In this document: positions 5,902 to 18,364 of the stretch, piece by piece | Position numbering within the stretch: position 1 is the stretch's first letter | Layout of the letters: every line of letters starts with the position of its first letter | DNA from: Wenzhouxiangellaceae bacterium | GTDB lineage: Bacteria > Pseudomonadota > Gammaproteobacteria > Xanthomonadales > Wenzhouxiangellaceae | DNA: 64,000 bases | Assembly: GCA_018334995.1 (NCBI GenBank) | Contig: JAGXKW010000001.1 | Location: 13,536-77,535, forward strand | Direction of reading: 5' to 3' | The notes under the pieces: generated by a model | What the model saw: the letters and a program-made list of their open reading frames with translations, nothing else | Told to the model about the DNA's origin: nothing | The model's database searches: none | Program-made: the position numbers and the translations under genes

Positions 5902-6678
5902 ATGCACATTCTCATCAGCAACGACGACGGTCTGGACGCCAAGGGCATTCGCCACCTCGCCGAGCGGATCGGCGAGCAGGTCGACCGCGTGACCATCATC
6001 GCACCGGACCGCGATCGATCCGGCGCCAGCAATTCGTTGACCCTGGACCGCCCGATCCGGGTCGACCAGCGTGACGAAAACGTGTTCAAGGTTTTCGGCA
6101 CGCCGACCGATTGCGTGCACATCGGGATCACCGGGCTGTTGGGCGAGGAGCCCGATATGGTGATTTCCGGCGTCAACGCCGGCGCCAACATGGGTGACGA
6201 CGTGATCTACTCGGGTACCGTGGCGGCGGCCATGGAAGGCCGTTTCCTGGGTTCGCCGGCCATGGCGGTATCGCTGGCCTACGAGAATTCGCGCCCGACC
6301 AACTACGCGAGCGCGGCGCGCGCGGCCGGGGTGCTGATGAATCGCCTGCACGAAGAGCCGCTGCCGGCCGACACGATTCTCAACGTCAACGTGCCGGACC
6401 TTCCCTGGGAAGAGATCAGGGGCTTCGAAACCACGCGGCTGGGGCACCGGCACCGTTCCGAGGACGTGATCCCGCTGGAAGACCCGCGCGGCCGGCAGTT
6501 CTACTGGATCGGCGCGCCCGGCGGCGAGGAAGACAACGGCCCGGGTACCGATTTCAACTCCATCCGGCGCGGCTACGTCTCGGTCACGCCCATCCATGTC
6601 GACCTGACCCGCTACCAGGCGCTGGATCCGGTCGGGCAGTGGGTGCAGAATATCCGGCGCGACGAGGATGCGGCCTGA
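5902..6678 (+). CDS. surE: 5'/3'-nucleotidase SurE
   Basis: A metal-dependent nucleoside monophosphatase (also exopolyphosphatase) linked to stationary-phase survival. The N-terminal ILISNDDG carries the metal-binding Asp8-Asp9 pair; APDRDRSGASNSLT and SGVNAGANMGDDVIYSGTV complete the active site. It is 258 residues, as usual for the family. An upstream in-frame ATG at 5854 was rejected because homologues begin right at the MHILISNDDG strand. It is the first gene of surE-pcm-yqaA-nlpD; pcm starts within or just after its stop. Confidence 0.96.
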   Translation: MHILISNDDGLDAKGIRHLAERIGEQVDRVTIIAPDRDRSGASNSLTLDRPIRVDQRDENVFKVFGTPTDCVHIGITGLLGEEPDMVISGVNAGANMGDDVIYSGTVAAAMEGRFLGSPAMAVSLAYENSRPTNYASAARAAGVLMNRLHEEPLPADTILNVNVPDLPWEEIRGFETTRLGHRHRSEDVIPLEDPRGRQFYWIGAPGGEEDNGPGTDFNSIRRGYVSVTPIHVDLTRYQALDPVGQWVQNIRRDEDAA

Positions 6679-7345
6679 AATGAATGCCGGAACCCTGTCG
6701 CGCGGCATCGGGATGACCTCTGAGCGCACGCGCCGGCGCCTGATCGAGAAACTTCGCGAGCAGGGCATTACCGACGAACGTGTGCTCAGCGCGATGACCG
6801 CGACCCCGCGCCACATGTTCGTCGACGAGGCGCTTTCCAGCCGCGCCTACGAAAACAGCGCCCTGCCGATCGGCCGCGGCCAGACCATCTCGCAGCCGCT
6901 GGTCGTGGCCATGATGAGCGCGGCGGCCATGGCCGCTCCACGGCGCGAAAAGGCGCTTGAAATCGGCACCGGTTCCGGCTACCAGGCCGCGGTGCTGGCA
7001 CGCCTGTTCCACAAGGTATTTTCCACCGAGCGCATCGGCGAACTGGCCCGGCTCGCGCGCCAGCGGTTGCATGCGCTGAAGATTCACAACGTCTATGCGC
7101 GCCATGCCGACGGCCTGGAGGGCTGGCCGGGCCAGGCGCCGTTCGATGCCATCCTGGTCACCGCCGGCGGCCGCATTCCCGAGGCGCTGTTCGAACAGCT
7201 GGGTGAGGGCGGCGTGCTGGTCGCGCCCATCGACGAATCCGGCGGCGTCCAGCAGCTGGTGCGATATACCCGCAACGGCGACGAGTTCGAGCGCGAGAAT
7301 CTTGGAGGCGTGAGCTTTGTGCCGTTGCTGGAGGGGCTTGACTGA
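6668..7345 (+). CDS. pcm: Protein-L-isoaspartate O-methyltransferase
   Basis: Repairs isoaspartyl residues in aged proteins using S-adenosylmethionine. SAM-binding motif I is ALEIGTGSGYQAAVLA, preceded by the substrate-loop region ALPIGRGQTISQP and followed by the FDAILVTAGG strand. It is 225 residues from the ATG at 6668, which overlaps surE by 11 bases; the ATG at 6680 is an equally credible start and has a better-placed purine tract. It belongs to the surE-pcm-nlpD stress-survival block. Confidence 0.95.
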   Translation: MRPEMNAGTLSRGIGMTSERTRRRLIEKLREQGITDERVLSAMTATPRHMFVDEALSSRAYENSALPIGRGQTISQPLVVAMMSAAAMAAPRREKALEIGTGSGYQAAVLARLFHKVFSTERIGELARLARQRLHALKIHNVYARHADGLEGWPGQAPFDAILVTAGGRIPEALFEQLGEGGVLVAPIDESGGVQQLVRYTRNGDEFERENLGGVSFVPLLEGLD

Positions 7346-10482: not shown

Positions 10483-12420
<1,938 letters not shown>

Positions 12421-12501
12421 GCAGATCTGGCAACGAGGATCCGGGAGGGAGCGCGGCGCTGGATAGCCGCTGCTCCATCGGTGCTGTCGGCGGCGGTTTT
12501 G

Positions 12502-13281
12502 TCAATCGTCGTCGGAAAGCCAGCCGATTTCCCGGGCGGTCTGCGGCCCGATGACTACCTGCGCCAGGCTTTCCGCCTGGTGCGCGCTTGTTTCGCTGGA
12601 CGCTATTCTGCCGGCCATCAGCTCGGCCTGGCGCTGCGGGTAAAGCGGCTGCTGGCTCGGCTGGGCGAAGCCGTGCGGGTAAAGCGGAAGGCCGGTCGAC
12701 GGGTCGTATTTGTCGGTTGCCCCGACCGTATGCAAAACCTCGTGCGTCAGAACGACCTGGTTCGCCCCCTGCATCGCCTTGCTTGCAAACAGGTTCGCGA
12801 TCGCGATCCTGATCCGCTCCACGCCAGTGGAGTGCGGAAGCTGTCGCTGTCGTCCGGACGGATCGAAGAAGCGCGCCAGCACGACGATGTCCGGGTCCAT
12901 CCCCTGAGTGTCGAAACGCCATCGCCACCAGCGCATCCGGGCGATCCAGGTGGCGCGCTGCAGGTAATTCCCGCCGATCGGCGGCGCCGGCGGCGATTCC
13001 GCGACCGGCGCCGCCAGCTGGACGTAGATCGGCCGCTCCAGGCCGATCTCATAGCGTTGCGCCTCGCCCCGGACGAAGCGCTCGATTTCTTCGAAATCGC
13101 GTTCCTCCAGGTGCTGGACATGATGTTCGGCGGGTTCGCTGCCGTCGGCATTGATCGGGTAGACCGCGATGAACAGCGGGGTCGACCAGCTCGCGATTCG
13201 CGCCCGGTCATTGAACTGGTGGTGTACGACCAGCAACAGGAGCAGCAGTAGCAGGGCGATGCGGAGGCGTTTGAACGTCAA
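12502..13281 (-). CDS. Putative membrane-anchored zinc metalloprotease (metzincin-like)
   Basis: A 259-residue protein of no family I can name. A basic N-terminus and a strong Leu/Val-rich hydrophobic stretch (residues 8-19) act as a membrane anchor or uncleaved signal; the rest would be periplasmic. Residues 180-190 read HEVLHTVGATD, fitting the metzincin zinc signature HExxHxxGxxD (as in snapalysin, with Asp as third ligand). A Met at residue 212 in AELMAGR could be the Met-turn. A Trp/Arg-rich block (residues 112-122) precedes it. It converges with ftsH and lies upstream of nothing obvious. Protease activity is inferred from the motif only. Confidence 0.68.
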   Translation of the reverse strand: MTFKRLRIALLLLLLLLVVHHQFNDRARIASWSTPLFIAVYPINADGSEPAEHHVQHLEERDFEEIERFVRGEAQRYEIGLERPIYVQLAAPVAESPPAPPIGGNYLQRATWIARMRWWRWRFDTQGMDPDIVVLARFFDPSGRQRQLPHSTGVERIRIAIANLFASKAMQGANQVVLTHEVLHTVGATDKYDPSTGLPLYPHGFAQPSQQPLYPQRQAELMAGRIASSETSAHQAESLAQVVIGPQTAREIGWLSDDD

Positions 13282-13353
13282 AGCTGTCGATCCCCGGCTG
13301 GCGTGATTGACTGACGGCTCAACGCCAAGCCTGATGCGGCGAGCCGGAACGGC

Positions 13354-13794
13354 CTACTTGATGACCTTGAGATCGGGCTTTCCGCGCTTGCCGCGCCCGG
13401 CTTCGTCCTTTTCGGCAGGCGTTTCGCCGGCCTTCTCGGACGGCGCCTCCCCGCTGTTTTCGCGATCGGCTTCCGGGAACATCATGCCCTGGCCGTTTTC
13501 CCTGGCATAGATCGCCTGCACGGCCTCGATCGGGACCAGCACGCCGTGCGAGACACCCGCGAACCGAGCGACAAAGCTGACGTATTCATTGTCGATCTGC
13601 AGATCCCTGACGGCCGTCGGTGAAATGTTCAGAACGACTTTGTCCTGGGCGCGTACCGAGTCCGGAATCTCCAGCTCGGGATGTGCGCTGTCGACGAGGA
13701 TCTGGGGCGTGGCACCGTTGTCGACGATCCAGTCATTCAGCGCCCGCAGGAGATAGGGCTGACTCGAGCTCATTGTCGCCTGGGAATCACTCAT
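13354..13794 (-). CDS. sspB: ClpXP protease specificity-enhancing factor SspB
   Basis: An adaptor that delivers ssrA-tagged and other substrates to ClpXP. The N-terminal domain begins around SSSQPYLLRALNDWIVDNG and continues with VVLNISPTAVRDLQIDNEYVSF and the GVLVPIEAVQAIYAREN strand. It ends in a long charged linker and a basic C-terminal tail (PDLKVIK) resembling the ClpX-docking tail of SspB. It is 146 residues from 13794; an internal ATG at 13773 could also be used. It overlaps sspA by eight bases, so they are translationally coupled. Confidence 0.93.
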   Translation of the reverse strand: MSDSQATMSSSQPYLLRALNDWIVDNGATPQILVDSAHPELEIPDSVRAQDKVVLNISPTAVRDLQIDNEYVSFVARFAGVSHGVLVPIEAVQAIYARENGQGMMFPEADRENSGEAPSEKAGETPAEKDEAGRGKRGKPDLKVIK

Positions 13795-14404
13795 CCTCTT
13801 CGCGACAGGCCCGTTCGGATTCGGTCAGGCTTCGCTGGAAGGCGTCGCGGCTGAACATGCGATCCATGTAGCGGTGCAGGTGAACGGTGGATTTCGCCGG
13901 AAGCTCGATACCGTAGGCGGGAAGCCGCCACAGCAATGGAAGCAGCGCGCAGTCGACCAGGCTCAGCTCATCGTTGAGCAGGAACGGCGACAGGCCGAAC
14001 AGCGGGTCGGACTCGATGATGTTGTCGCGCAACTGCTTGCGCGCTGTCTCGATGCGCTTGGGCCCGCTCGAGGTCTCGATGATTCGGCCGTTTTCGATCC
14101 AGTCGCGCTGGATGCGATAAAGCGCCAGGCGGAGCCTGGATCGGGAAACCGGGTCGACTGGCATCAGGGGCGGATGCGGGTAGCGCTCGTCGAGGTACTC
14201 GGTCACGACCCATGTCCCGTAAACCACCAGGTCGCGATCCACCAGGGTCGGGGGTTCGCCATAGGGGCTGAGCTCGGCGAGATCGGCAATGGCCGAACGA
14301 TCCTGCTCGATGTGGATGATTTCCACATTGAGACCCTTTTCAGCCAGCACTACGCGCACGCGATGGCAGTCCAGGCAGTTTTCGGAGGAATACATGGTCA
14401 TCAT
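13787..14404 (-). CDS. sspA: Stringent starvation protein A
   Basis: A glutathione S-transferase-like RNA polymerase-associated regulator acting in stationary phase and acid stress. It has an N-terminal thioredoxin-like domain with MYSSENCLDCHRVRVVLAEKG and the PPTLVDRDLVVYGTWVVTEYLDERYP region, then an all-helical C-terminal domain. It is 205 residues, as in E. coli. It lies downstream of petABC and upstream of sspB, the conserved gammaproteobacterial order petA-petB-petC-sspA-sspB. Confidence 0.95.
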   Translation of the reverse strand: MMTMYSSENCLDCHRVRVVLAEKGLNVEIIHIEQDRSAIADLAELSPYGEPPTLVDRDLVVYGTWVVTEYLDERYPHPPLMPVDPVSRSRLRLALYRIQRDWIENGRIIETSSGPKRIETARKQLRDNIIESDPLFGLSPFLLNDELSLVDCALLPLLWRLPAYGIELPAKSTVHLHRYMDRMFSRDAFQRSLTESERACREEDE

Positions 14405-14444
14405 TGGGCCGGGTACCTCCGGTCAGCGCTGTGCGGGCAGACGA

Positions 14445-15176
14445 TCACTTCTTGACGTCCCGCCAGTATTCCTTGTAAAGCAACCACGACAGGAAAGTGA
14501 ATACCACGAGGAAGAGAAGAACCCATACCCCCAGGCTTTCTCGCTTCAGCACCGCAGGTTCGGCCAGGTAGACCATGAACGCAGTGAGATCGCGCAACGC
14601 CAGGTCATATTCTTCCGGCGACATGCTGCCGGCCTGGTCGACCTGCAGTTCGGCGATACGCGTCTCTTCCTCGCCGTTTTCGTTGGTGTAGGTTTCCATC
14701 ACCGGGCGTTGAATGCCCTGCAGTTCCCACAGGACGTGCGGCATGGAAGCGTTGGCCAGAACGGTGTTGTTCCAGCCGTCTCCGGTCAGGTAGAAACCCT
14801 TGAGAAACGAATAGATCCAGTCCGCGCCGCGCGAGCGTGCCGTCAGGGTGAGGTCCGGCGGTTTTTTCCCGAACCACTGCTCCGATTCCGCCGGCATCGC
14901 GGCCTTCATGTAATCGGTGATCTCGCCGCTTCCGAGGATGAGGTTTTCCTGTACCTGCTCCTCGGTCAGTTCGAGATCCTGAGCCAGGCGCTGATAACGC
15001 ATGTATTCCGCCGAATGGCAGGAATGGCAGTAGGTCACGAACATGGCCGCGCCGCGCTGGACCGAAGCAAGGTCGTGGACGTTGGCGCCCGATTGTTCCA
15101 GGCCTTCGCCCCCGGCGGCCGGCCAGGCGGTCTGGGCGGCGGCCAGGAGTGCGATGGTGAATGCGATTCGAATCAT
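14445..15176 (-). CDS. petC: Cytochrome c1, bc1 complex subunit
   Basis: A c-type haem subunit of ubiquinol-cytochrome c reductase, passing electrons from the Rieske protein to soluble cytochrome c. It has a signal peptide (residues 1-20), the haem site CHSCH at residues 50-54, a probable Met ligand in ANASMPHVLWE, and a C-terminal membrane anchor (about 215-235) ending in a basic cytoplasmic tail. It is 243 residues. Its start overlaps the petB stop by four bases. It is the third gene of petABC. Confidence 0.95.
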   Translation of the reverse strand: MIRIAFTIALLAAAQTAWPAAGGEGLEQSGANVHDLASVQRGAAMFVTYCHSCHSAEYMRYQRLAQDLELTEEQVQENLILGSGEITDYMKAAMPAESEQWFGKKPPDLTLTARSRGADWIYSFLKGFYLTGDGWNNTVLANASMPHVLWELQGIQRPVMETYTNENGEEETRIAELQVDQAGSMSPEEYDLALRDLTAFMVYLAEPAVLKRESLGVWVLLFLVVFTFLSWLLYKEYWRDVKK

Positions 15177-17043: not shown

Positions 17044-17266
17044 GAACAGTGACTCCTGATTCGGAACGGCGATTGCCGTTCGGCAAAACTCTCCGCGCGA
17101 GCGAACTGCCGGTAGCGACTCGGCCGCCGCACTCAAACGCCAATTTTACCGAATTTTAATTCAGTGCTGCTTCACTTCGCGCCAATATGCGTGATTGCGG
17201 AAACGGGTGAGGACGCTGGACGTCCATACCTCTAAAATACTTGATCGATCGAATTTTTGCCGGCCC

Positions 17267-18364
17267 ATGAAACGAAGCGTTCAATTTCTGCTGCAGGCCA
17301 CCGTGCTGGGCCTGGCCATTGCCTTCGTGCTGGTCTGGTTCCGCCCGGGATTCCTGCCGCTGGAAACCGCCGACGGCGGCTTCCAGGCGACCGGATCCTA
17401 TGCCGACGCGGTCAATCGCACCGCGCCATCGGTGGTCAGCATCTATACCCGCACCATGGTCAGCGAGCCCATGATCGGCGAGAGCGCCGATCCGCTGTTC
17501 CAGCGCCTTTACGGCGACCGCAGGGTGCTGCGCCCACGCAGCGGGCTGGGCTCCGGCGTCATCGTCTCCGCCGACGGTCTGATTCTGACGACTGCGCACG
17601 TGATCAACGGAGTGGACAACATCTTCGTCGCGCTGTTCGACGGCAGCGTCGCCGAGGCGCGGGTCATCGGCACCGATCCCGGGACCGATCTGGCCGTGCT
17701 CAAGATCGCGCTGGATGGCTTGCCGGCGGCAAGTTTCAACACCACGACCCGACATCGACCGGGCGACGTGGTGCTGGCCATCGGCAATGCGTTCGGCCTG
17801 AACCACACCGTGACCGCCGGCATCATCAGCGCGACCGGGCGGGGCGACCTGAACCTGGCGACGTTCGAGGACTTCATTCAGACCGACGCGGCGATCAATT
17901 CCGGCAACAGCGGTGGCGCCCTGATCAACGCCCGCGGCGAGGTCATCGGCATCAACTCGGCCTCGCTCAGCCAGGAAACCGGCGCCCAGGGCATCAGCTT
18001 TGCCATTTCCGCCCGGCTCGCAACCGAGGTCATGCGCCAGATCATCGAATTCGGAGACGTGCGGCGGGGCTGGCTGGGGGCGAACGTGACCGACCCGCCG
18101 CTGATGAGCCTGGAAGGCGACGATCAGCCCGGCGGCGTCCAGGTCGCGCAGATTTATCGCGGCGGTCCGGCCTGGCAGGCCGGCCTGCGGCCCGGCGACA
18201 TCCTGCTTTCGGCCGACGGCGAGCCGGTGGGCAGCGCGCGTGAATTCATGCTTACCATGGCCGAAGAAGCGCCTGGGTCCGAAATCGAACTGGTCGCGAT
18301 GCGAAACGGGCAGCGGTTCACCACTTCGGTGACGTTGATCCAGCAGCCGCCTTTGCAGGGCTGA
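17267..18364 (+). CDS. degS: DegS/AlgW-type periplasmic serine protease with one PDZ domain
   Basis: A 365-residue HtrA-family protease anchored by one N-terminal transmembrane segment (about residues 7-25). The triad is visible as His111 in LTTAHVING, Asp141 in GTDLAVLK and Ser215 in NSGNSGGAL. A single PDZ domain covers roughly 260-355. One PDZ plus a membrane anchor fits DegS/AlgW, which trims anti-sigma factor RseA/MucA in response to outer-membrane stress, better than DegP/DegQ. The ATG at 17267 gives the anchor directly. It is divergent from petA, and no rseA/mucA is nearby. Confidence 0.9.
   Translation: MKRSVQFLLQATVLGLAIAFVLVWFRPGFLPLETADGGFQATGSYADAVNRTAPSVVSIYTRTMVSEPMIGESADPLFQRLYGDRRVLRPRSGLGSGVIVSADGLILTTAHVINGVDNIFVALFDGSVAEARVIGTDPGTDLAVLKIALDGLPAASFNTTTRHRPGDVVLAIGNAFGLNHTVTAGIISATGRGDLNLATFEDFIQTDAAINSGNSGGALINARGEVIGINSASLSQETGAQGISFAISARLATEVMRQIIEFGDVRRGWLGANVTDPPLMSLEGDDQPGGVQVAQIYRGGPAWQAGLRPGDILLSADGEPVGSAREFMLTMAEEAPGSEIELVAMRNGQRFTTSVTLIQQPPLQG

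Follow-up and report, generated by a model that had tools for sequence, protein, structure and literature searches.

Organization of the locus

Within the window, by which we mean the whole 64,000-nucleotide stretch of DNA analysed, an open reading frame at 12502..13281 (minus strand, TTG start, stop codon included) codes for a predicted membrane-anchored, metzincin-like metalloprotease of 259 residues. The initial annotation gave these limits, and the position of the sequence HEVLHTVGATD at residues 180-190, exactly; it did not give the strand. The protein begins with a hydrophobic anchor (about residues 8-22; 13216..13260, minus strand), preceded by positively charged residues and modeled by AlphaFold2 as a helix of residues 3-31. 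Among 93 homologues, the mean net charge is +2.2 ahead of the hydrophobic stretch and +0.8 behind it; the bias is not uniform, being of the N-in type in 60 of the 93 and reversed in 15. From this charge bias we predict an N-in topology, in which the catalytic domain faces the periplasm. An N-terminal anchor and a periplasm-facing domain had been proposed before, and the periplasmic orientation is, as judged from sequence, probable.

The gene is convergent with ftsH (10483-12420, plus strand; Pfam M41/AAA/FtsH_ext), as was originally noted. Upstream, on the same strand as the protease gene, are sspB, after a gap of 72 bp, sspA and petABC. A gene for a DegS/DegP-like protein with trypsin and PDZ domains is found a few genes off, at window positions 17195-18364 (plus strand), and rlmE/yhbY lie farther away. 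A scan for promoters and terminators revealed no promoter-like site in 12380-14480. The convergence with ftsH, the position of sspB and the nearby DegS/DegP-like gene would all suit a protein that partners FtsH, together with the SspB- and DegS-like neighbours, in a single inner-membrane quality-control module. However, the neighbours differ by lineage: they include ilvA/rpiA, genes for Bat-like proteins and, in Acinetobacter, topA, among others, and no conserved operon or partner gene was found across the homologue neighbourhoods. ftsH was seen beside the protease gene in close relatives only, and in two members of the same neighbour cluster (L058 and L114) the stretch inspected is unlike FtsH. 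Moreover, the flanking blocks (ftsH, sspB and petABC) are housekeeping genes, and the protease-rich character of the stretch, with ftsH, the ClpXP adaptor gene sspB and the trypsin/PDZ gene, probably reflects a conserved housekeeping order. Because the ftsH context was observed in close relatives alone, it gives no basis for reading function; the role in envelope quality control that had been derived from it is not retained, and a partnership with FtsH seems quite improbable. FtsH (M41) is also a membrane-anchored zinc protease, of an unrelated family; it is AAA-driven and has a cytoplasmic active site.

Conservation of the predicted active site

The sequence HEVLHTVGATD (12712..12744, minus strand) corresponds to the zinc-binding motif of clan MA(M), HExxHxxG/NxxH/D, in which the Gly may be Asn (PMC12237041). 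Asp as the third ligand is rare among metzincins, and is known from the snapalysins, thuringilysins and igalysins (PMC12237041). About 7e-5 occurrences of HExxHxxGxxD would be expected by chance in a protein of equal length and composition. By itself, the motif is suggestive; the case for a zinc site comes from its conservation. The clan motif was found in all of 102 distinct homologues, and HExxH, whose conservation had been named as a check, is kept in every one of them together with the third-ligand Asp. Three of them have Asn in place of the Gly at position 187, which the other 99 keep. The proteins L010, L011 and L017, which at first seemed to have no motif, form a subclade with HExxHxxN, a variant also reported for the lower pappalysins (PMC12237041).

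In metzincins, the residue that follows the third ligand is family-specific (PMC12237041). Here, K191 and Y192 (12706..12711, minus strand) occupy the two positions after the Asp: the first is Lys in 86 of the 102 homologues and Leu in the other 16, and the second is Tyr in 101. A nearby Tyr can serve as a 'tyrosine switch' (PMC12237041), and Y192, two residues past the Asp, is a candidate for this function.

A candidate Met-turn is formed by A219-E220-L221-M222-A223-G224 (12610..12627, minus strand). The Met of ELMAGR had been proposed for this role at 22 residues from the motif; the residue exists and is invariant in the 102 homologues, but M222 is 32 residues past D190. Across the family the distance is 30-33 residues, and the Met occurs mostly in AE[ILV]M. 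An older convention reserves the term 'Asp-zincin' for enzymes with an Asp ligand and no Met-turn (PMC3890501). Since the candidate Met is invariant, we prefer to call the protein a metzincin, in which the M222 region would form the turn beneath the zinc.

In an alignment of 44 sequences, H180, E181, H184, D190, Y192 and M222 are among the invariant positions. Overall identity between the window protein and its homologues is mostly 35-68%, and that the active-site positions are fixed at such distances suggests selection on the zinc site. Strict conservation of these residues across deep divergence is what would be expected of an active enzyme, and the protein is likely to be one.

Predicted fold

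AlphaFold2, run with the family alignment, gave a metzincin-like model, with a pLDDT of 92.3 and a pTM of 0.89 for the full-length protein and of 94.9 and 0.91, respectively, for the soluble domain. The model has strands at residues 36-44, 85-89, 132-139, 152-154 and 159-165, a helix at 60-76, an inserted helix at 106-123, the active-site helix at 168-184 (12730..12780, minus strand), which ends in H180-E181-x-x-H184 and contains invariant columns, the Met-turn region, and a C-terminal helix at about 246-251 (12529..12546, minus strand), in which E251 is invariant. It thus contains the five-stranded sheet and the backing, active-site and C-terminal helices of the metzincins, and the order of the elements agrees with the published description (PMC12237041).

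A Foldseek search of the PDB with this model returned 59 matches at E<=0.001 (best E 9.7e-6, probability 1.00). No match at or under E 0.001 was obtained with a viral structure library. The best 50 of the 59 are all metzincins, some by their description and others by the family to which they belong. The matches include ADAM17/TACE, ADAM10, ADAM33, ADAMTS-5, snake venom metalloproteinases and OgpA, with the adamalysins ranking first. The TM-scores are moderate (0.36-0.56; 0.37-0.52 when normalized to the query) and identity is about 10%; therefore, the likeness is at the level of the clan. Together with the conservation of the motif, the Foldseek matches support the original proposal of a metzincin with Asp as third ligand. 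Neither of the two findings named at the outset as refuting that proposal, a different fold or a variable HExxH, was obtained, and we make the assignment of both fold and active site with high confidence.

Relationship to known families

Searches of Pfam and of PDB sequences with the window protein gave no match, and searches of Pfam, NCBIfam and the PDB with the 44 homologues detected no metalloprotease family above cut-off. This agrees with the initial annotation, which could not place the protein in a known family. Below the cut-offs, the sole sequence signal that recurs across members is NCBIfam TIGR03296 (M6), which scored 11.8 bits against a cut-off of 110.8. The Reprolysin models PF13583 and PF13574 each matched two of the 44 members (best E 0.11-0.15), and the M7 snapalysin models PF02031 and NF033628 matched one (E 0.05-0.07). 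The PDB profile matched only a DNA glucosyltransferase (E 0.05), which we took as a chance match.

These signals raise the question of whether the protein is a diverged true member of M6 (thuringilysin/immune-inhibitor-A), M7 (snapalysin) or M64 (igalysin), all of which share with it an Asp as third zinc ligand. Weak TIGR03296 matches were found in 41 of the 44 members (best E 0.0037), HExxHxxGxxD is common to both, and in one M6 relative LYD comes after the motif. However, the M6 matches cover the motif region only, and alignment with hhalign to the M6 domains of relatives gave a probability of 1.8%, a weak negative since the alignments are small and shallow; the same holds for the 0.3% obtained with the Reprolysin_4 domains of relatives. 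The window protein also differs from M6 enzymes in being a small, membrane-anchored single domain. M7 was not detected above cut-off by sequence. M64 enzymes have a Tyr two residues past the Asp, as here, but their motif is HExxHxxxGxxD, with an extra residue ahead of the Gly that is absent from the window protein (PMC12237041). Finally, Foldseek places the adamalysins, and not these families, first. Membership of M6, M7 or M64 is thus unlikely.

The adamalysins/ADAM sheddases (M12B), the closest matches by fold, have a metzincin core and a Met-turn, as are predicted for the window protein, and are also tethered to the membrane, via a C-terminal helix. In contrast, the anchor is N-terminal here, the third ligand is Asp rather than His, identity is about 10%, and there are no pro-domain, disintegrin or Cys-rich domains; nor does the protein match the Pfam Reprolysin family above cut-off. 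With no match reaching a cut-off and no profile-profile support, we assign the protein to an unnamed family of the metzincin clan, and not to M6 or M12B. This well-conserved family is without a name in Pfam and NCBIfam. A literature search with the motif string gave no match, and no paper on the family was found by titles and abstracts.

Proposed mechanism

We propose that the protein is, quite probably, a metzincin-clan zinc endopeptidase, with an N-in transmembrane helix and a periplasmic domain that cuts envelope substrates. A single N-terminal helix (type II) would tether one catalytic domain of about 225 residues in the periplasm. In this domain, H180, H184 and D190 would bind the zinc, E181 would act as the general base, Y192 may stabilize the transition state and M222 would provide the floor of the Met-turn. 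As far as can be seen, this mechanism is an ordinary one. Because it has no pro-domain or extra domain, the enzyme is probably active as soon as it has folded, with the membrane tether as the restraint. It could then cleave proteins or peptides of the envelope near the periplasmic surface of the inner membrane, for turnover or shedding, a role that we put forward tentatively. Somewhat more speculative is the idea of a new family of Asp-ligated, inner-membrane-tethered periplasmic 'sheddases' with neither pro-domain nor ATPase; many gamma- and betaproteobacteria, A. baumannii among them, would use these enzymes to release proteins of the envelope or to degrade them. Periplasmic proteolysis has been studied mainly via the Deg proteases, Prc, BepA and FtsH. 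The predicted enzyme is amenable to tests in culturable hosts and merits both annotation and biochemistry.

Distribution

Of 61 genomes of relatives, 22 have a homologue; in a sample of 276 genomes from the class, 59 do. About one fifth of the class genomes sampled therefore carry a protease family that lacks a Pfam or NCBIfam entry and is missing from annotation. From the genome collection, 80 loci were retained. A phylum-wide profile search found the protein in four of 398 genomes, a figure that cannot be used as a frequency because the sample was a different one and at most six candidates were scored per genome. Carriers include Wenzhouxiangella, Denitromonas, Methylobacillus, Methylobacter, Methylophaga, Cycloclasticus, Thiogranum and Sedimenticola; betaproteobacteria and a few metagenome-assembled genomes (MAGs) of Thermodesulfobacteriota and Binatota also have homologues.

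In the class sample, 29 of the 59 carriers have exosortase, and of the 217 genomes without the protease 64 do (Fisher p = 0.008, phylogeny ignored). This mild association could mean that exosortase/PEP-CTERM, or a comparable sorting system, uses the enzyme as its processing protease. The genome of the window, however, has no exosortase match, and neither do 30 of the 59 carriers. The existence of such carriers effectively refutes a requirement for exosortase, and a role in protein sorting of this kind is extremely unlikely.

In A. baumannii, records contain a homologue that is 35% identical and annotated as 'hypothetical protein'. In one of them (L153, CP035931.1) it is located at 5935-6693 and adjoins topA. 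The matching A. baumannii records are filed as plasmids, yet several are chromosome-sized. The genome of the window has a second copy (L025, C116:197-940), 42% identical to the first, which groups apart from the window copy, with paralogues carried by other members of the same bacterial family. A protein from an Actinomycetota MAG (L088) is almost identical to a proteobacterial one (L086), and one of the two MAG contigs may be mis-binned.
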